From Opitutia bacterium (GTDB lineage Bacteria; Verrucomicrobiota; Verrucomicrobiia; Opitutales; Seribacteraceae), in assembly GCA_018645725.1 (NCBI GenBank), contig JABGWD010000086.1:1-41032 (forward strand): a stretch of DNA of 41,032 bases. The letters are read 5' to 3'. Position numbers and translations under genes: made by a program. The notes below the pieces were generated by a model that did no database searches, had not been told where the DNA came from, and was given only the letters and a program-made list of their open reading frames with translations. Positions 13,828-27,306 of the stretch are shown piece by piece (position 1 is the stretch's first letter; each line of letters starts with the position of its first letter).

Positions 13828-14916
13828 TCAGATACCGGACGGAAGAACTCTTATCCTCCTGACGTAAACCTCGGAATTGCCCTCGGCCAATTCCCACCAG
13901 TATTCGTCTTCGGAAAATCCGTCCGGGACGGGGATAAGTCCTTCTTCGAAAGCGGAGATTGCGGAGGCGCCTTCCGTAGTCAGTATCCTGACCATTACGT
14001 CGACTACCTCGGGGAAAGCATGTGGGCTCCCGATTGAACTTGCGGCAGGGTTGCTGGTTGACAGCAACTCGTAATCCGAACCGCTCCCCGAGGAGGAATC
14101 GTTTACGTCCGGGAAAATTTGCCTGAGGTGTCCCGTGCCTTCGTCATTTTCATCAATCAAATAGGCGCGGATTCCGAAATCTATGATATTGGCGGCAAGG
14201 GAGAAATCAGTGGAAGGACCGGTGCTGTCATTGAATATGGGAGTGATGACGTTTTTCGGGACCCGGACGCCGTCGGCCGCAGCAGCTCCGTATGCGCCGT
14301 TAGTGGGATCAAGATCATAGCCCGCTTCGAAGGTATCTTTTGCCGTGACGTCCGAGCGAAACAGTTGGTAGCGTGGTTTTGAGGTTTCCGAACCAGTCAA
14401 TCCATAGCGGACGATTTGGTATCCTATTGCCCGAACCCCCCCTGTGTTTTCGGCATTGGGGTCAAGTTCGGGCGCTTGGGAAAAAAAGCGTAGCCAAGTT
14501 CCTCCCACTCCAAACCTCGAATCGATCAAGGGCCATTGGTTGTTCGCTACCACGATCTCATCGACTTCTCCGTCGGGGCCTTTCCAATCGTCGGCAGTTA
14601 CCCGAAGAGAGACCGTGTCGGGTTTGCTTCGCTCGTCCGGTTCCCAAACCGAACTGTTTTCGGTATCTTCCAAAATCGTTGCCGCAAGCCAAACGTTTCC
14701 GTCATTTCGATAAACGGCGCATTGCAAATCCTCCTGGATGCGGTCCAGGATGAATTGGGCGGCTTGGTTCGTCTCCAAGTCTCCGGTTGCTTTGGTTTGA
14801 GTGGTTACGACTTGCGTGGTGATGTTCAAAAGCAGGACCGCGAGCAAACCGGTTACGGAAACTGCGACCAGTAATTCCAAAAGGGTAAATCCTTTGCTAT
14901 TGAACTTGAAAGTCAT
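13828..14916 (-). CDS. Prepilin-type N-terminal cleavage/methylation domain protein (GspJ-like / Verru_Chthon cassette-like)
   Basis: SKGFTLLELLVAVSVTGLLAVLLL type III signal with E5, followed by QVVTTQTKATGDLETNQAAQFILDRIQEDLQCAVY, a J-type pseudopilin helix. ORF extends to 14940. Confidence 0.88.
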   Translation of the reverse strand: MTFKFNSKGFTLLELLVAVSVTGLLAVLLLNITTQVVTTQTKATGDLETNQAAQFILDRIQEDLQCAVYRNDGNVWLAATILEDTENSSVWEPDERSKPDTVSLRVTADDWKGPDGEVDEIVVANNQWPLIDSRFGVGGTWLRFFSQAPELDPNAENTGGVRAIGYQIVRYGLTGSETSKPRYQLFRSDVTAKDTFEAGYDLDPTNGAYGAAAADGVRVPKNVITPIFNDSTGPSTDFSLAANIIDFGIRAYLIDENDEGTGHLRQIFPDVNDSSSGSGSDYELLSTSNPAASSIGSPHAFPEVVDVMVRILTTEGASAISAFEEGLIPVPDGFSEDEYWWELAEGNSEVYVRRIRVLPSGI

Positions 14917-14998
14917 CGGGTTGTTGCAATCGGTAGACAAAATTATTCCTACTTTCTACTTCCATCCTTCGCTTTGCGCAAGTAGAGAGTCGCCCCCC

Positions 14999-17310: not shown

Positions 17311-19041
17311 ATGACGAATCCCAAAATTAAACTTTGTTTTGCCGCGCTTTTCTTTGCGAGCTCTCCCCTCGCCTTCTGCGAAATTGATTTCGTCCGGGAC
17401 GTGAAGCCAATACTCGAACACAATTGCGTTAGCTGTCACCGGGAGGACAATGCCAAAGGAAAGATCAGGCTCGACACCAAAGCCGCTGCCTTTGCGGGTG
17501 ACGAGGTCATCGTGCCCGGCAAACCCGAGGACAGTTCTCTTTATTGGACAACGACACTACCGTCCGACGACGATATTGCCATGCCCCCGATCAAGAACGA
17601 AGACAAAGATTATCCTTTGACCAAGTTCGAGAAGAATATTTTAAGCGATTGGATCAAGGAGGGAGCGGAATGGCCGGACGAAGAAAAGCTGTCGCCCCTG
17701 AAAAGGCTTCCCAAGCAGGTGGATTTTGTCGAACACGTACAACCAATTCTCGAGCTCAATTGCGTAGCCTGTCATTATGAAAAGAAGGTGAAGGGAAAGC
17801 TCAGGCTTGATTCGTTCGAGCATGCCTTTGCCTCGGAAACCGTTTTGGTCCCTGGCGAACCACTCGACAGTGATCTCTGGGTTTTGTGTACGCTTCCTCA
17901 AGATGACGAGATGTTTATGCCTCCCGAAGGAAACGACCCGTTGTCCGCCACCGATCTTTTCATGTTGAGGCGATGGATTGAGGAGGGTGCCGATTGGCCC
18001 GAATCTGCCAAGCTTTCTCCGAAAAAGAAAAGTTTTACCGTTTTGGGCATGATGCCGAAGGATCTTTACCGGGAGCTTGGTTTCAGTGCCGGCAAGGTTA
18101 AGGGCGAATTCAGCGGATACCGGCAGGAAATCAAAACCTCGGACTTGAATTTCGAGATGTTGCCCATCAAAGGGGGACAATTCACCATGGGCAGTCCCCT
18201 TGACGATCCAAATCGTGGAAAAAACGAATTTCCCGCCCACCCCGTCAAGGTCTCGGACTTTTGGATGGGGAAGCATGAGGTAACGTGGGACGAGTACGAG
18301 CTATGGATGATTAACCTCGATAAGGACAATCGCGAGTACAACAAGATTGAAAAGAGTGAGGGCGACGGTCTTGCCGATGCGGTGACCAAACCGACCTCTC
18401 CCTACGTGGACATGTCCTTTGGCATGGGCAAGAGCGGGTACCCGGCGATTTGCATGACTCAACTCTCGGCAAAAATGTACTGCATGTGGTTGAGTGCCCG
18501 CACGGGCAAGTTTTACCGCTTGCCGACCGAAGCCGAGTGGGAATACGCCTGCAAAGCCGGTACGGAAACCGCCTACAGTTTCGGGAACGACTCCAAGGAA
18601 CTTTCCAACTATTCCTGGCATGTCCGTAACAGTCGGTTCCAATACCAGAAGATCGGGCAGAAATCGCCGAACCCATTCGGACTGTACGACATGCACGGAA
18701 ACGTTTGGGAATGGGTGCTCGATCAATATGCCCCTCCTGCCAAGGAAAAGCCCACGGAGGTCAGGGTCAACCCCCTGATTGCGCCCAATACCCTGTATCC
18801 CCGAGCCGTCAAGGGCGGCTCATGGGACGATGGAGCCTCCAATCACCGGAGTGCTGCCCGGATGGGTTCGGAGGAAGCCTGGAAAAAGCAAGACCCGCAA
18901 ATTCCCAAGAGCGTGTGGTACCACACGGATGCAATTTTCGTCGGTTTCCGAATCGTGCGTCCCCGTGAGATTCCCACGATCGATGAAGTCGAAAAATTTT
19001 GGCCTTCCGAAGAGGACATAAAGGCTATTCCTCAGCGTTAA
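17311..19041 (+). CDS. Secreted tandem Planctomycete-type cytochrome c domains fused to an FGE-sulfatase (SUMF1-like) fold domain
   Basis: Signal peptide; two CxxCH motifs (HNCVSCHREDNAKGKIRLD, LNCVACHYEKKVKGKLRLD) with PSCyt1-like repeats. C-terminal FGE-fold (MGSPLDDPNRGKNEFPAHPVKVSDFWMGKHEVTWDEYELW, RLPTEAEWEYACKAGTE, GLYDMHGNVWEWVLD). Confidence 0.93.
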   Translation: MTNPKIKLCFAALFFASSPLAFCEIDFVRDVKPILEHNCVSCHREDNAKGKIRLDTKAAAFAGDEVIVPGKPEDSSLYWTTTLPSDDDIAMPPIKNEDKDYPLTKFEKNILSDWIKEGAEWPDEEKLSPLKRLPKQVDFVEHVQPILELNCVACHYEKKVKGKLRLDSFEHAFASETVLVPGEPLDSDLWVLCTLPQDDEMFMPPEGNDPLSATDLFMLRRWIEEGADWPESAKLSPKKKSFTVLGMMPKDLYRELGFSAGKVKGEFSGYRQEIKTSDLNFEMLPIKGGQFTMGSPLDDPNRGKNEFPAHPVKVSDFWMGKHEVTWDEYELWMINLDKDNREYNKIEKSEGDGLADAVTKPTSPYVDMSFGMGKSGYPAICMTQLSAKMYCMWLSARTGKFYRLPTEAEWEYACKAGTETAYSFGNDSKELSNYSWHVRNSRFQYQKIGQKSPNPFGLYDMHGNVWEWVLDQYAPPAKEKPTEVRVNPLIAPNTLYPRAVKGGSWDDGASNHRSAARMGSEEAWKKQDPQIPKSVWYHTDAIFVGFRIVRPREIPTIDEVEKFWPSEEDIKAIPQR

Positions 19042-19100: not shown

Positions 19101-22100
19101 ATGAACGATCTTGCACATAACCGCAAACCCTTGCCTCAAAAGAACAAGAGCAAAGGTTTTGCCTTGGTGTTGGCTCTTGCCTTGATGAGCTTGGTCTTTC
19201 TCCTCGTCATTTCCCTCGTCACCTTGGTCGGGACCGACCTCAGCCTGGCCGAACTCCGCAAACAAAGAGTTCTTTCTCAAGCCAATGCCAAGATGGGGAT
19301 GATGGTTGCCCTTGGCGAATTGCAAAAGCACCTCGGGCCGGACACGAGAATTTCCGGCACGGCCGATATGCTTGATGAGCGGATTGAGCAAACGTCGCAA
19401 TTTCTCCAAACCAAGTACGACCCGAACGTCACCCCGTCGGACGGTATTGATCTCAATGAAAACGGAGAGATAGACAAACTCCCGTTCGGTCAAAGATATT
19501 GGACGGGGGTCTGGAAGCACAAGGCAGCCAACGACAACAATAAGGACAACCCGGGTATCAGTCCTACGCCGGGGAACTTCGAACCGGGCAATTCCGCTAG
19601 CAAATTCACCACTTACGACAGTGGTTTCGACTCACACCCTGCGGTCGAGGTCGCTTGGTTGGTGAGCGGGAACGAAGGGTACCAAAAGAAATTGGGCATC
19701 TTTTCCTCATCGGGACCCTTTGGAAACCAGTTGAGCGAATTCCTCGATATCCCGGACGGAATCTTCGTCGACGACAGACCCAGTCCTTATGGAACGGAGA
19801 CAAACGCTTGGCTCGATTTCGAAAACGTGGTCAGGACCGACAAGCTTTTCGGTCAGGCAAAGCAATTGACCGAAAGATCGTATCATCACCCCATGATCGA
19901 TCTTCCCGATCCCGACTTGCCGAGCGCACCCGATTCCAACGAGACGGTTTGGATTCTCAAGAACCCTTTGCTCAAGCATACTTACGACAAAGGGGTGCGT
20001 GACGGAAGCGTCAACCCGGACGATTGGAGAGATCACTTGATTGCCGAACCCGTAAAAGTCAGGAAAACCTCTTTCGCTCTCTCGGAAAGAGAAGACAAGT
20101 CAGCCGTTTATGCCTATTGGGTCGGGGACGATGGAGTGAAGGCCAAGCTCAACCTGCTTTCTGCGGGCGACCAAAAACAGATTGCCGAATCACCCAACGT
20201 GGAATCCGGGGTCGACCTGACGTTCACTCATCCGGAGAGAAATCAACCCCATGTGATCGACTCCCCCTCCTTTGCCGTCTTTGACCAAAGCGCCATTGAT
20301 TCTGACAGTGCCAAGGATATTCGCAATGACAAGATTTCCGTCAACTATCATGCCCTTACGGCGGATTCCTACGGGGTTCTTTCCGACAGCCGGTCGGGTG
20401 GGCTTAAGCGCGATTTGAGCGCCCTTTTCGCAATGTCCGATCAGCAGTTCGACGACTACGGATTCGGAGGGTGGTTTTACAAGGAACGCGTTCATTACCT
20501 CAAGGAATTCGAGCCGAACCTCAAGGTAGTCGGAGCAACACAGCGACCTCATGTGGAAAAGCCCGGAGGGGTAGCTGACTACGCAGGCCAGCCGATACCT
20601 AATCCCAATTCGAAGGCAAAGGCCAACCAATGGCTTGATCGTGCAGGCGCTCCTTATATCAACGACTACGGGGTACTTGCCGCCGGGCCCAAATGGTCCG
20701 TCCTTCGTGATTTCCATAACCTTTATGAGGAAGTGGAGGACGACACGCTTACCGTCACCGAAAGTACGAGTGGCGAACCCAACGCTGCCTATCCCGACAA
20801 GTTCCCGAGGAGCACCGGGGACAACCTTGTGGTCTTCGATTCGAGGCCGCACGGGGCGATCAGCAAAGCTCGCGGAGGCGCTGCCGAAATCAGGAAGCAA
20901 TACAATTATCTTCGAGGAATTCAAAACCGTCCCGAACCATCCAACCATCCGATCAGTCCCGTCCTTCTTGAGATCAAGTACGGACAAGCCCCTTTCTTCG
21001 AGAATGGCAAACTAGGCTTGGCCGTCCTTCCCTCGGTTGCCCTTTGGAACCCGTACGACGTGACCTTGACCATGGATCAAGACATTATTGTCGAGGTTCC
21101 TATCCAAAACGAGATCCAAGCTTATAACACGAAAGACTGGGATATATTCAAGAAGTGGTGGAATCACGAACTCAAACGGAACACCTCCTCGGTTTCAAAT
21201 GGCTTTTCCACTTCCTCCACGAGTTTGCCAAGTAACTCGGAATTCAATTTTGACCCGGATGACGATGCCCTGTTTGCCTCCATTTGGCCAAATACTTTTA
21301 TTGATTTGAATGGCAACGGAAGATGGGATCCCGGAGAAACCGGTCGACGTCCACCCAGGCTCCCTCCGGTCAAGCCGGGTAAACCCGGAGGCGGGGGCGG
21401 AGGAGGAGGAAGCAGGCGATGGCGGCGCCCCATCTATTCGGGCGACCGGCACGACTTTTGGGACAAGCAATTCAAGCACGTCAGCCATCAGGAGAGAAAC
21501 AAGATTTCGAATGCCGCCAACCGCAATTTTTTCCGCTTCCGCAACGAATCCGATTTCACCCCCCTCTTTAGTCACCCCTCCTCTATTCGCTCCAACGGGA
21601 AAATACCCGTTTTCCACATCTTCCGCCAAAGCAGGGTCGAGCTTCAGTCTGGACGATCGACATTCGTACGAGCCACGGGCGCTGTGCCCTTGCGTCTTCG
21701 AATCAGCAGCCTGAAACTCGACCCGGGCGAAAAAGCTCATTTTGTCGTTGAGTCCGGAGCAACCTACGATTGGTCATTGATTAAACAAGTAAGGAACGAC
21801 CCGAGCGGAAGATCGAAGAGCCTGTTGGACATTCCCTTGGTCAAGGGACCCGAAATACCTGTCATCGCCAAATTTTTTACCGACTACACGCAACCGGGAA
21901 GCGATCCGGTTACGGTTCGCCATTGGCTCTCTCACATAAAGGGAATCACACGGGCCGAACTGGAAAACATTGACGAGACCGGGAACATTCTTCCCGGTCT
22001 TGGCGGTACGCCCTCCCCCAGGGGCATTACCATATACTTGGCGTCGGGCAGCAACGAATTTGCTATCAAGAAATTCAGCAAATCTTTCAATATAGGCATA

Positions 22101-24695
22101 GGAGGAGGAATTAACGACTACGCCAACGCGAACTCCGACTTGAGTTTGAACCGTTTTAAGAATCTTTCGGGCAACAAAGCTCCGATGAATGGTTTCAGGC
22201 TCCGGTGGAACTTGCCTGGCGACTCGGACAAGATTGTTTTTCACGAATTCAATCCCCGTTCCCTTGTCGAAAGTTTCCAAACCGGTTCCGGGCACAATTG
22301 GTCTGTGGAAAAGTTCGATTCGAATCATTACAAAGGACATGGTGGTAACAAGGCTTGTAATACATGGACTAAGTTTTACGTAGGCAAAGAAAGGCCACCT
22401 TACCGTTGGAACGAACACAACCCTACGTCCGAGCCGTTCGCAGACTTCGACGACTTCAACACCACGAAACATTTCACGGAGTCAAGCGCCACCGGGAGAA
22501 GTTTTGTCCCCGGAGCTGCTTTCCCACTGGTTGACGACTCGGGCGAGTACTGCATCGGTTACTTTCATGAAGACCAGAACTTGGATATGGAGGGCCAAGC
22601 GGCTTTTGACTCCGCGATCATGTTTGGCGTCCCCCGCACTCCCTTGCTTTCCCTCGTGCAATTCAGGCACGCCAATTTGAATCCCTATTCCCAAGGTCCC
22701 GCTTACGTTGTCGGCAATTCCTACGCCACTACCCAAGTTGCCCGCTACAAGACTTGGGGAAGGGTCCGCCGGATCGATTTTCAGCCTGATATGGACATTC
22801 CATACTTGGTCAACAAATTCAGTTTCGATTACCTGGATCAATTTACCGGAAATTACTTTCCGGTACGTCTTTTTCCGTGGGATTTGGCGAACTTGGACAC
22901 GGGTGCGGGAACTGTCCGTGACGTTGAGAACGAATTCAACCACCAAAACGTTACCCTTGATCAAAGTTATTACGCGAACCAAGCCCTTTTTGACGGGTAC
23001 TTTTTATCCGGTGACGACAGGAACAACCCCTCCCTTTCCTCCTCGTTGCAGTCCGCAAATCCGAGACTGGTTCCTTACCGGAACGCCGACGCCGTCGGTA
23101 ATTCCCAGTCCGGAGAAGATCACCGTCATCAGACCAATGCGTCCAATCTTCTGATCAATGGGGCGTTTAACGTAAACTCCACCTCTGTGGAAGCATGGGT
23201 CAGTCAACTTTCTTCTCTTAGGAAATATGGTGAAAGCAAAACGCCATTTCCACGCGTCATAGGTGAAAGCTCCGCTCCGGACGACGTATGGGCAGGGTAC
23301 GCCTCCCTTACCGATGACCAACTTGAGGATTTGGCCCGATATCTGGTCGAGGAAGTCAAGTTGCGAGGACCTTTTTTGTCTCTTTCCGACTTCGTTAACC
23401 GCAGGGTTGCCCGCACTTCCTTTGCCTCCGGTAACGAAAGTTTGGTTTGGTTGAAGCGTGACAAGTGGCCGAGAGAGACCAGAGACACGGTTTTGGGTTT
23501 GCGTGGTCCCGTACAGGCGGCGATTGCCAAAGCCGGGATCAATGGCGAAGGGTTCTCCACTTCGAAGGATGACCTTGCTCTTCCGCGGGTTCCTCAAAAA
23601 AGATGGGTAATGACAGGTGGGGCGAAGGGAAGAGCCATGACCACCCAAGAATTTTCCCTTGTCGGGTTCAAGAACAATGGCTTGTCATCCGTTGATTCGA
23701 AGTTCGGTTCGCATGCCATAAGTTTGCAGGGAACTCTCCGTCCGGCGTCCCCCAAACCCAACGTCGGGAATCCTGACCGGAATAATCGCGGGCATTGGTA
23801 TACCTACGCGCAAGGTTGGGGTGCAGGGGTAACTCAAAAAAACGACCTGTTTCCTGATCCGCTCATAATGGTGCGGGCTACCCGGTATCACGTCGACACC
23901 AACAATGCCTACCGTGCGGATGACAGCATTGCAAACGTGGGTGATTGGATACCCAACCCTCCCGTTCTTATTCCCGCCGTTCAGAAGGACCCTCCGGATC
24001 CTTACAGGCAATGGAATGATCAACAAGGAATGCAAGTTTCCCGTGAGAGGATGCCCATGAAAATGGACATTTACAAGAATGCCTTCAATTTTGGAGAGGC
24101 CCCGGACAGCCTTTTGGCCGTTGAGAACGTTGCCACTGGGGCCAATATTCCAGGTTGGCTTACCCAGGCAGACGTCCTTTCGCCTCTTGCTCCCTCCCTC
24201 GCTGCCCGTTCCGATACCTTTACGATCCGTGTCATGGGGGAAAGCCCTGCCGGCGAGAGCAATCAGATGGCTTCCCGCTCATGGATCGAAGTAACGGTTC
24301 AACGTCTGCCCGATTACGTGAAGTCCAAGTTGGACCCTGCGTATCATCGGCCTCATGAGCCTTTTGAGGACCGCAATTTGGATGGCATTTGGAATGGTCG
24401 TGAGGAATATTGGCTTGATTTGAACCGCAACAGTACCGAAAGCGACAGTTCCGGAAAGATTCAACCCATAACCAATGGCATAGAGGCAGGCCCCGATTTG
24501 CCGGGAATTGGAAAAACGGGAGCGAGAAATCGTTATGCAGTCGGTTTGCCGACGGATCGCAAACTTAATCAGGACCCGCATGAGGAAGTCCTGTCCAATT
24601 CTGACAAGGATATTTCAAGAAAAGGAATCAACCAACGGTTCGGCCGCAAATTCAAGATCATAAAATTCCGTTGGTTACGGGAAAACGAAGTGTAA
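19101..24695 (+). CDS. Giant pilin-like secreted protein, Verru_Chthon cassette protein A-like / GspK-PilX-like N-terminus (1864 aa)
   Basis: KGFALVLALALMSLVFLLVISLVTLVGTDLSLAELRKQRVLSQANAKMGMMVALGELQKHLGPDTRISG resembles the cassette A N-terminus. Late in the protein: LRGPFLSLSDFVNRRVA. Confidence 0.85.
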   Translation: MNDLAHNRKPLPQKNKSKGFALVLALALMSLVFLLVISLVTLVGTDLSLAELRKQRVLSQANAKMGMMVALGELQKHLGPDTRISGTADMLDERIEQTSQFLQTKYDPNVTPSDGIDLNENGEIDKLPFGQRYWTGVWKHKAANDNNKDNPGISPTPGNFEPGNSASKFTTYDSGFDSHPAVEVAWLVSGNEGYQKKLGIFSSSGPFGNQLSEFLDIPDGIFVDDRPSPYGTETNAWLDFENVVRTDKLFGQAKQLTERSYHHPMIDLPDPDLPSAPDSNETVWILKNPLLKHTYDKGVRDGSVNPDDWRDHLIAEPVKVRKTSFALSEREDKSAVYAYWVGDDGVKAKLNLLSAGDQKQIAESPNVESGVDLTFTHPERNQPHVIDSPSFAVFDQSAIDSDSAKDIRNDKISVNYHALTADSYGVLSDSRSGGLKRDLSALFAMSDQQFDDYGFGGWFYKERVHYLKEFEPNLKVVGATQRPHVEKPGGVADYAGQPIPNPNSKAKANQWLDRAGAPYINDYGVLAAGPKWSVLRDFHNLYEEVEDDTLTVTESTSGEPNAAYPDKFPRSTGDNLVVFDSRPHGAISKARGGAAEIRKQYNYLRGIQNRPEPSNHPISPVLLEIKYGQAPFFENGKLGLAVLPSVALWNPYDVTLTMDQDIIVEVPIQNEIQAYNTKDWDIFKKWWNHELKRNTSSVSNGFSTSSTSLPSNSEFNFDPDDDALFASIWPNTFIDLNGNGRWDPGETGRRPPRLPPVKPGKPGGGGGGGGSRRWRRPIYSGDRHDFWDKQFKHVSHQERNKISNAANRNFFRFRNESDFTPLFSHPSSIRSNGKIPVFHIFRQSRVELQSGRSTFVRATGAVPLRLRISSLKLDPGEKAHFVVESGATYDWSLIKQVRNDPSGRSKSLLDIPLVKGPEIPVIAKFFTDYTQPGSDPVTVRHWLSHIKGITRAELENIDETGNILPGLGGTPSPRGITIYLASGSNEFAIKKFSKSFNIGIGGGINDYANANSDLSLNRFKNLSGNKAPMNGFRLRWNLPGDSDKIVFHEFNPRSLVESFQTGSGHNWSVEKFDSNHYKGHGGNKACNTWTKFYVGKERPPYRWNEHNPTSEPFADFDDFNTTKHFTESSATGRSFVPGAAFPLVDDSGEYCIGYFHEDQNLDMEGQAAFDSAIMFGVPRTPLLSLVQFRHANLNPYSQGPAYVVGNSYATTQVARYKTWGRVRRIDFQPDMDIPYLVNKFSFDYLDQFTGNYFPVRLFPWDLANLDTGAGTVRDVENEFNHQNVTLDQSYYANQALFDGYFLSGDDRNNPSLSSSLQSANPRLVPYRNADAVGNSQSGEDHRHQTNASNLLINGAFNVNSTSVEAWVSQLSSLRKYGESKTPFPRVIGESSAPDDVWAGYASLTDDQLEDLARYLVEEVKLRGPFLSLSDFVNRRVARTSFASGNESLVWLKRDKWPRETRDTVLGLRGPVQAAIAKAGINGEGFSTSKDDLALPRVPQKRWVMTGGAKGRAMTTQEFSLVGFKNNGLSSVDSKFGSHAISLQGTLRPASPKPNVGNPDRNNRGHWYTYAQGWGAGVTQKNDLFPDPLIMVRATRYHVDTNNAYRADDSIANVGDWIPNPPVLIPAVQKDPPDPYRQWNDQQGMQVSRERMPMKMDIYKNAFNFGEAPDSLLAVENVATGANIPGWLTQADVLSPLAPSLAARSDTFTIRVMGESPAGESNQMASRSWIEVTVQRLPDYVKSKLDPAYHRPHEPFEDRNLDGIWNGREEYWLDLNRNSTESDSSGKIQPITNGIEAGPDLPGIGKTGARNRYAVGLPTDRKLNQDPHEEVLSNSDKDISRKGINQRFGRKFKIIKFRWLRENEV
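21339..21435 (+). repeat. Low-complexity Arg/Pro then poly-Gly coding tract
   Basis: Encodes RRPPRLPPVKPGKPGGGGGGGGSRRWRR. Confidence 0.8.
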
Positions 24696-24704
24696 AACAA
24701 GACT

Positions 24705-24738
24705 TCTCTTCACGCCGCAATTCGTTAAGGTGAAGAGA
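24705..24738 (+). promoter_or_regulatory. 9-bp perfect inverted repeat covering the initiation region of the following gene
   Basis: TCTCTTCAC (24705-24713), 16-nt loop, GTGAAGAGA (24730-24738); the last A is the A of the ATG at 24738. Confidence 0.5.
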
Positions 24739-25535
24739 TGAGATTTTGTATTCTTTTGTCAGTTTTCCTGACGACTCTTCTTTGGTCGCAGGAGCAAGCG
24801 GAGAAGCCATCGCCCAAGGCGCTTTTTTCAATCATGCTGTGGAATACACAGGGCAGTCAAAACCTTGCTTACGCCCCGTGGGGAAATGACCGCGAGGGAA
24901 ATGCCACCATCGTTCCTTTTACCGTATCCTCCGGCAGACCTTCCCAAAAATGTTCCTTTTACGGGGTCGGCGAGTTGAATTTGCTTAGGCAAAAAGAGCC
25001 TTATGAATTCGAAGAGGGTGAGGACCCATATGAATCGGTCTCCAAGATTCGATTGCCGTTTTCTGCAGACAAACCCAGTGACTCCCTTATTCTCCTTACT
25101 CCGTCAGCGGAAGAAGAAAGTTGGAAAACGAGAAACCTTTCCTTTGACGAAAAGACGATTCCCAAAGGACACTTCACCTTCAGTTCTCAACTCAATTCCC
25201 CGATTGGCTTGATTTTCGGAGAATCCAAGTTCACCCTTTCACGCGGAAAGACGGAGCAAGTCAAAGCAACCCCCAAGGACAAGGAAAGCGAGGTTATGGA
25301 GCTCTCGGCCTACCTGCCGAAAAATGGAAAGTACGAACAGGTTTTCTCTAGAAAATGGCCCTACTCACCCGATCTTCGCGGGTTGTATTTCGTCGGCATG
25401 CAAAGAAACCGAATTCGTGTGAGCCGAATCGTGGAATTCTCTTTGCCTGTGGAAAACACTCTTGGTTTTGGCCTTCTGCCCGTTTCCTCTCTTGAGACGG
25501 AAGAAAAACCTCAGCCTACGGTTGGTGGGTTTTAG
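24738..25535 (+). CDS. Secreted protein of unknown function
   Basis: N-terminal signal (MRFCILLSVFLTTLLWSQ); long ORF immediately downstream of the giant pilin-like gene; no family recognised. Confidence 0.75.
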   Translation: MRFCILLSVFLTTLLWSQEQAEKPSPKALFSIMLWNTQGSQNLAYAPWGNDREGNATIVPFTVSSGRPSQKCSFYGVGELNLLRQKEPYEFEEGEDPYESVSKIRLPFSADKPSDSLILLTPSAEEESWKTRNLSFDEKTIPKGHFTFSSQLNSPIGLIFGESKFTLSRGKTEQVKATPKDKESEVMELSAYLPKNGKYEQVFSRKWPYSPDLRGLYFVGMQRNRIRVSRIVEFSLPVENTLGFGLLPVSSLETEEKPQPTVGGF

Positions 25536-25590
25536 GACATTAAGTTCCACGAATTACCAAAACCCCTTTTCTCCGCTTGCTTCCCTTTTC

Positions 25591-27306
25591 GTGATCTCAC
25601 CTCTTCTGCTTCTTGTTCTTGGTCTTCTTCTCGTGATCGGGGGTATCGTATGGCTTCGTATGCATGCGTTTCTAGCCTTGGCTTTGGCGGCCTTTGTCGT
25701 GGGGGCTCTTACCCCCAAGGACAACCGCTTGAAGAATGCGTTCGAAATGAAGGGTTTTCATGCTGAAAACGGAGCTTCCGAAACTGGAGCCGTTGTCGAT
25801 CTTCTCATTCCGAAAAAGAAAAAAGGGCAGTTGCGGGTTGGTTTACATATGGTTGCCAAACGACTCAGCGATGATTTTCCCCAGGTTGCAGAGTTGCAAA
25901 TCCTTTCCATTGGGGAGGAAAAATGGAAAGGACAACAGGGCAAACGGTTAGTTGCGAAAGCAAAAATCATTACTCTCATGGCGGGAATGAGCTTGGAGAA
26001 GTCCGACGTGCTACTTTCCGAATCAGCTGAACTGGAAGCAGTTTCGAGTGCTGGCAAGAACGTTGGTTCCCTCGTTGCCGATGGGTTTGGGAAAACATGC
26101 ACAAAGGTTGGAATCATAATCGCCATGGCCGCAATTATAGGAACCTGCATGATGCAGAGTGGGGCTGCCATACGGATTGTAAGGTCCGCCCTGTCGATCT
26201 TTGGAGAAAAACGCGCTCCCGAAGCCATGGCTGGGAGTAGTTTTCTTTTGGGGATCCCCGTTTTCTTCGACACCCTGTTTTACCTGATGGTTCCGCTGGC
26301 CAAGGCTCTGGCGTTGCAGACCAAGAAGAACTACCTCTTGTACTTGCTTGCAATCGTTGCGGGAGGAGCCATGACGCATTCCTTGGTCCCTCCTACTCCC
26401 GGGCCTTTGCTTGTCGCGGGAGAACTAGGCGTTGATCTGGGAAGAATGATCGTTGGTGGTCTCTTGGTTGGGTCCTTCGGAATGACTGGTTCTTTCCTAT
26501 ACGCCCGCTGGTACAATCGTAAATTCCCTATAGAGGTACGATCGAGTGGAGACATGGAAAAAAGTGCATTCATGAAATTTTCCGAATTGAAGGATGACAA
26601 ACTTCCAGGTCTCTTGTTTTCACTTTCTCCGATCTTGCTCCCCGTTATTCTGATTGCCGGTAATTCCTTTTTGAAGCAAGTAACGCCAGACTTGGAAAGC
26701 ACCTGGTTTGAAACCTTACAAAAAGTTGTTGGTATTCTAGGTGACAAGAACCTTGCCCTGACCATCGGTTCCGCTCTTTCGCTTTTGTTGTTGATCCGTT
26801 CCCCGGCTTCAAGAGGTGGAAAAGTCGGAGTTTCGGTTGGCAATTCCCTGAAGAGTGCGGGGACGATCATCTTGATCACGGGAATGGGGGGAGCCTTTGG
26901 CGGCATTTTGCAACAGACCTCGCTTGGTTTGGACATCCGAACCTTTGCCACAAGCAATGAACTTGGATCGATGGCTATTCTGTTGCTCGCTTTTTTCGCC
27001 ACTTCTGCAATTCGCATCGCTCAGGGAAGCGCAACGGTCGCCATGATTACGTCCGTTGGAATAGTGGGCGGTCTGGTAAGCCAAGGGTTTGGCATTCATC
27101 CGGTTTATTTGGCCTTGGCCATAGGCTGCGGAGCCAAGCCCATCCCCTGGATGAACGACAGTGGCTTTTGGGTGGTTGGCAAACTGTCCGGCCTGACGGA
27201 GAAGGAAACCTTGCAGACTTTCTCCGTCGTAATTGCCCTGCAAGGTATTGTCGGGATGCTTGCGGTTTTGGCTTTTGCGTATTTTTTTCCAAACTTTCTT
27301 TTTTGA
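25591..27306 (+). CDS. GntP family permease (gluconate:H+ symporter-like) with a soluble insertion
   Basis: GGIVWLRMHAFLALALAAFVVGALTP, LLGIPVFFDTLFYLMVPLAKALA, THSLVPPTPGPLLVAGELGVDLGRMI, SVGIVGGL and a C-terminal GntP-like segment. Start codon uncertain (GTG 25591 proposed; ORF track from 25462). Confidence 0.88.
   Translation: MISPLLLLVLGLLLVIGGIVWLRMHAFLALALAAFVVGALTPKDNRLKNAFEMKGFHAENGASETGAVVDLLIPKKKKGQLRVGLHMVAKRLSDDFPQVAELQILSIGEEKWKGQQGKRLVAKAKIITLMAGMSLEKSDVLLSESAELEAVSSAGKNVGSLVADGFGKTCTKVGIIIAMAAIIGTCMMQSGAAIRIVRSALSIFGEKRAPEAMAGSSFLLGIPVFFDTLFYLMVPLAKALALQTKKNYLLYLLAIVAGGAMTHSLVPPTPGPLLVAGELGVDLGRMIVGGLLVGSFGMTGSFLYARWYNRKFPIEVRSSGDMEKSAFMKFSELKDDKLPGLLFSLSPILLPVILIAGNSFLKQVTPDLESTWFETLQKVVGILGDKNLALTIGSALSLLLLIRSPASRGGKVGVSVGNSLKSAGTIILITGMGGAFGGILQQTSLGLDIRTFATSNELGSMAILLLAFFATSAIRIAQGSATVAMITSVGIVGGLVSQGFGIHPVYLALAIGCGAKPIPWMNDSGFWVVGKLSGLTEKETLQTFSVVIALQGIVGMLAVLAFAYFFPNFLF

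Follow-up and report, generated by a model that had tools for sequence, protein, structure and literature searches.

The window analysed here, a stretch of 41,032 nucleotides from the 3.9 Mb draft genome of a marine Verrucomicrobiota bacterium, carries a giant gene whose product is probably a K-type minor pseudopilin enlarged by inserted segments of approximately 780 residues in total, with a canonical Ca-type loop in each of two of them. The giant is real, conserved, and unusual in its size and gene pairing, although the kind of protein that it represents is already known. The reading that we favor, and to which we give rather better than even chances, is that this K-type pseudopilin is processed, carries Ca loops and caps a type 4 filament, with a partner, encoded just downstream, on its enlarged head. 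The open reading frame starts with ATG and has no internal stop, and the gene is present as a single copy in its own genome. Its parts are given below, with reference to a structural model of a 1141-aa homologue, L213, that is 26% identical to the giant.

19101–24695, plus strand: giant, putative K-type minor pseudopilin of 1864 aa (from the open reading frame, its orthologues and its family relation)
19101–19157, plus strand: class III-type leader, aa 1–19, with a cut predicted from the sequence after Gly19
19158–19334, plus strand: long hydrophobic N-terminal helix (pilin alpha-1), aa 20–78, aligned to helix 18–76 of the L213 model and to the family's GspK and TIGR02600 matches
20109–20147, plus strand: YAYWVGDDGVKAK block, aa 337–349, perhaps like the DE..K.NLN strand of GspK; placement unstable (4/150 permutations equal)
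21129–21512, plus strand: insertion, aa 677–804, with the canonical Ca-type loop DLNGNGRWDPGE at 21303–21338 and a Gly/Pro/Arg-rich stretch
23358–23405, plus strand: near-invariant KLRGPFLSLSDFVNRR block, aa 1420–1435, aligning with GspK 250–272 (1/150 permutations equal)
23550–24077, plus strand: largest insertion, aa 1484–1659, by comparison with L213
24201–24311, plus strand: AARSDTFTIRVMGE...WIEVTVQRLP, aa 1701–1737, candidate equivalents of the C-terminal GspK strands
24342–24617, plus strand: insertion, aa 1748–1839, with the tandem loops DRNLDGIWNGRE and DLNRNS
24639–24692, plus strand: terminal strand FGRKFKIIKFRWLRENEV, aa 1847–1864

The junction of leader and helix reads KSKG/FALVLALAL, and cleavage at the predicted site (slash) would leave Phe1 and a leucine in place of Glu5. 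The type III-like N-terminus without Glu5 that an earlier note on this DNA had described is thus as quoted there, and the same note was right that the protein is far larger than normal pseudopilins, being about six times the size of GspK (1864 versus ~300 aa). No Pfam or NCBIfam model gave a credible match to the giant in an hmmscan, profiles of the giant and partner families both failed to match any PDB sequence, and none of the viral contigs searched had a match. Promoter and terminator scans gave site counts not above those of shuffled sequences.

The giant has matches in 44 of the 57 genomes searched (its own included), and the A-like family is present in 53 of the 194 genomes surveyed. 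Full-length orthologues of 1718–1962 aa are common within its own genus and family, and short homologues of 1141–1322 aa occur across the Verrucomicrobiota, Kiritimatiellota records among them; the two size classes can be aligned over their whole length (1083 columns, E 2e-147). In a tree with midpoint rooting, all 23 proteins that reach 1480 aa group in a single clade (support 0.998), and so do the 21 that reach 1650 aa (support 1.0). Among the best loci the relatives are all from Verrucomicrobiota, in agreement with the phylum specificity proposed earlier. One Porticoccaceae (gammaproteobacterial) record, L169, has an orthologue, probably on a mis-binned contig. In L072 (the same as L176) and L187 the giant is broken into two or more frames, by assembly error or decay. 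The strict blocks common to orthologues are GFALV, GPDTR, WVGD.GVK, WNPY, GNSYA and NSTSV, followed by KLRGPFLS..DFVNRR, RSDTF and FGRKF.I.KFRWL. In 23 giants G19, F20 and A21 are invariant, as are RGPFLS, F1431 and NRR of the RGPFLSLSDFVNRR stretch.

The N-termini of this family resemble those of two families of profile models. The type II secretion system (T2SS) GspK model NF037980 matches 26 of 35 family members over their N-terminal 60–85 residues (best 1.1e-6; below the cut-off among the matches listed), and TIGR02600, the model for Verru_Chthon cassette protein A, matches 30 of the 35 over the same length, again below cut-off. The giant itself is matched by neither NF037980 nor the T2SSK models, and Pfam T2SSK matches none of the 35. 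The TIGR02600/T2SSK comparison proposed in the earlier note was therefore negative for the giant alone and positive for the N-termini of its family.

To look past the N-terminus, we built a GspK profile from 21 sequences, 20 of Verrucomicrobiota genomes and one of E. coli K-12, and compared with it four segments taken from the short homologues, column-permuted GspK serving as the control. No permutation out of 150 equaled the helix segment (E ~1e-9) or the C-terminal block, and a single one equaled the RGPFLS block; these three segments are co-linear with GspK. Moreover, the C-terminal block scored better than all 60 permutations in giants, in short homologues and in TIGR02600 members alike, and in all three it fell at the same place in GspK, ~278–314. 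The match of the fourth, middle block was dropped, since 4/150 permutations equaled it and its place shifted once gap columns were removed. The GspK likeness claimed earlier is thus upheld by helix, RGPFLS and C-terminal blocks in GspK order. The strong likeness is nevertheless confined to the helix, and for the greater part of the 1864 residues no relative is known, as would be expected if the giant had borrowed only a pilin-like membrane anchor and the remainder were a large surface or periplasmic protein outside any filament. We regard this as unlikely, because the RGPFLS and C-terminal blocks follow in GspK order beyond the permuted controls and because one homologue, in locus L099 (see below), stands at the K position of an operon.

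In the L213 model (pTM 0.77, mean pLDDT 67.5) the N-terminus forms a helix of 59 residues and the strands near the C-terminus coincide with the aligned positions, and a Foldseek search of it against 350,542 PDB chains placed XcpX, GspK and a pseudopilus filament model at ranks 2, 3 and 4. With E ~1 and TM-scores of 0.04–0.15 for these GspK-type matches, the ranking is a hint, not proof. These signs of a GspK-like core (helix, strands and ranks) come from a homologue instead of the giant. Combined, the N-terminal, block and fold evidence, none of it proof by itself, makes a GspK-like core likely in this family, as judged from sequences and a model.

The earlier note had also seen a resemblance to cassette protein A, and this stands for the N-terminal region only. 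In none of the 57 genomes does a relative exceed the curated TIGR02600 cut-off of 332.3, and the giant itself has no match. The alignment with true TIGR02600 members is limited to the first 77 columns in the giants (E 1.4e-6) and to 209 columns in the short homologues. The direct C-terminal match between giants and TIGR02600 is not significant (8/60 permutations equal), so that this link rests on GspK as an intermediate. No tandem B, C and D prepilins lie beside the giant; a single J/C-like prepilin is encoded on the opposite strand, at a distance of 4 kb. With nothing over the cut-off, an unalignable middle and no adjacent B/C/D genes, we rejected TIGR02600 membership for the giant. The broader proposal that it is cassette protein A, part of an A-B-C-D cassette, draws on the N-terminal matches in 30 of 35 members, on the helix and C-terminal GspK-like blocks common to both families, and on L099, where B/C/D-like genes accompany an A-like gene; it too seems improbable to us, given the short alignments and missing cut-off scores and given that the TIGR02600 loci examined lack the partner, whereas the loci of the module described here seldom have prepilin genes nearby. 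In the true TIGR02600 loci (L131–L140) the A gene is accompanied by prepilins. A literature search of limited scope on Verru_Chthon found no paper, which is no proof of novelty.

The PilX likeness also proposed earlier comes down to a weak PilX_N match in 9 of the 35 homologues (best E 0.015) and none in the giant. That the giant might be a PilX-type minor pilin distributed along the pilus is, we think, very improbable: the GspK and TIGR02600 models match the family better, and a protein of this size would presumably be hard to pack along a filament.

Relative to L213, the giant has twelve insertions of at least 20 residues, totaling 784 residues, and both canonical Ca-type loops fall within two of these; that of aa 677–804 is missing from L213. 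All three loops of the earlier note are where it had placed them (aa 117–125, 735–746 and 1757–1782), but the first, DLNENGEID (19449–19475), is not canonical because its twelfth acidic residue is missing; most of the genus's giants retain it. The giant has two complete EF-type loops of 12 residues, DLNGNGRWDPGE and DRNLDGIWNGRE, where 0.011 would be expected per shuffled sequence, and two were reached in none of 2000 shuffles of the giant; the looser DxNxNG-type pattern occurs three times against 0.37 by chance (P 0.0055). The motifs are therefore statistically real, and from their sequence we infer that the two canonical loops are Ca-binding sites. None of 31 short homologues has the full EF-type pattern. 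Roughly half of the orthologues lack the strict pattern, with looser loops occupying the same places, and within the insertion of aa 1748–1839 the giants keep an EPF.D.N..G....E.W.DLN pattern.

Three neighboring genes in the window bear on the giant:

13828–14940, minus strand: GspJ/cassette-C-like prepilin with Glu5 (GFTLLE); TIGR02599 7.7e-7, gspJ 9.1e-5
17311–19041, plus strand: protein with two PSCyt1 cytochrome domains and an FGE-sulfatase domain, 59 nt 5' of the giant
24738–25535, plus strand: partner, 265 aa, all-beta, with an N-terminal hydrophobic signal-like segment, 42 nt 3' of the giant

The J-like prepilin, the only minor-pilin gene near the giant in the window, is syntenic with it in 12 of the 15 giant loci counted and also in L097. 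Neither this prepilin nor the partner, nor the ordinary GspK encoded elsewhere in the genome, figures in the earlier note. The recurrent order in relatives is J-like prepilin, phosphatidylserine decarboxylase, ApbE, PSCyt1/FGE protein, giant, partner, with the PSCyt1-PSCyt1-FGE protein the direct upstream neighbor in most orthologous loci; its cytochrome part is absent in some relatives. Sulfatase-like genes, by the look of their sequence, lie beside A-like genes in L084, L085, L087, L088 and L090. In the L099 operon, D/H-like, B/I-like and C/J-like prepilins are followed by an A-like protein and then the partner, so that the homologue occupies the K place in the same H-I-J-K order as in the T2SS of E. 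coli K-12. By this correspondence, the cassette proteins would be counterparts of the T2SS set: D of H, B of I, C of J and A of K.

In 59 of 71 loci, which had themselves been found via the A-like protein, the gene for the exported partner (~250 aa in the family) lies immediately 3' of the A-like one; several of the remaining loci are contig ends or split genes and a few are apparently without a partner. A less biased test used the 20 partner matches from the 194-genome search that had no listed A-like match, although the partner profile was itself built from A-like/partner pairs: in 18 of them an A-like gene on the same strand comes directly before the partner, one sits at the end of its contig and the last has none, giving 18 of 19 informative cases. 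The partner was detected in 31 of the 194 genomes, with at least 13 scored copies in one of them; compared with the 53 for the A-like family, this means that either some genomes lack the partner or it sometimes escapes detection. Tandem A-like genes (1519 and 1537 aa) precede a single partner gene in L084, and in L163, L171 and L177 the giant and its flank are present with no recognizable partner 3'. The partner belongs to no Pfam family. In its model (pLDDT 91.7, pTM 0.83) a hydrophobic helix at the N-terminus precedes an all-beta body, for which the best fold matches are PepT1/PepT2 ectodomains and Bacteroides adhesin-like proteins, at TM-scores (0.16–0.41, by query) low enough that the modeled fold may be called only tandem beta-sandwich-like. 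The GntP permease frame as listed, 25462–27306, begins within the partner gene; its true start is probably further downstream, because its homologues have ~482 aa.

Since relatives of the giant usually adjoin this small exported protein across the phylum, the pair is probably an uncharacterized filament-tip device. A minor-pilin complex, itself capped by a subunit without Glu5, initiates type 4 filaments (PMC10191384). A fibre-tip place for the giant can be soundly inferred from GspK; by analogy it would cap a filament, and the partner might be attached or exported there. In the mechanism that we favor, leader and helix would insert the giant into the inner membrane, and the genome's prepilin peptidase would cut it after Gly19. 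Lacking Glu5, it would join ordinary minor pilins, for example the J-like protein, in starting and capping a type 4 filament. The GspK core would lie in scattered blocks, the insertions enlarging the head, to which the partner would bind as a stabilizer or an exported tip effector; the surface task might be adhesion or cargo-specific secretion. Against this reading, gene order alone is no evidence of physical contact and a few giants have no partner. A more tentative extension, which we consider possible yet doubtful, is a phylum-specific filament-tip system in which large K-type pseudopilins, each with its own exported beta-sandwich-like protein and in at least a dozen copies in some genomes, would be interchangeable tips on one machinery.

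Among known proteins, GspK/XcpX/PulK (NF037980; PF21687, PF03934) share with the giant a leader and helix without Glu5, and C-terminal strands after an (R/K)S..F.V motif with a preceding helix block; Ca sites are also known in GspK/XcpX, which binds Ca (PMC6211770). They differ in their ~300 aa, whereas the giant has insertions, other neighbors and no Pfam T2SSK match. TIGR02600 proteins have in common with it the N-terminal region, the C-terminal block via GspK, the phylum and a size of ~1200–1750 aa, but have B/C/D prepilins where the giant has its exported partner. Oversized minor pilins are already known: the modular PilB and PilC of S. sanguinis, likewise thought to be at the tip, carry a grafted known domain (PMC9934059), in contrast to a pilin core broken by many domain-less insertions. 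CofB–CofJ of type IVb pili, a tip minor pilin with an exported non-pilin (PMC10191384), may serve as an analogy for the pair. A K-type tip subunit would give a testable identity to a large unannotated family of Verrucomicrobiota, would suggest H-I-J-K-like minor pseudopilin sets for the unexplained Verru_Chthon cassettes and, if true, would show how much enlargement a GspK core tolerates; the partner is brought to notice as a gene family without a Pfam model.

The machinery genes that such a filament would use are present in the giant's own genome, which has one prepilin peptidase, four T2SSE-family ATPases over cut-off and eight prepilin-signal matches (one borderline). One of its contigs carries secretin, GspE-like and GspF-like genes along with an ordinary GspK that runs off the end of the contig; with this separate GspK in the genome, the giant does not have to work in that T2SS.
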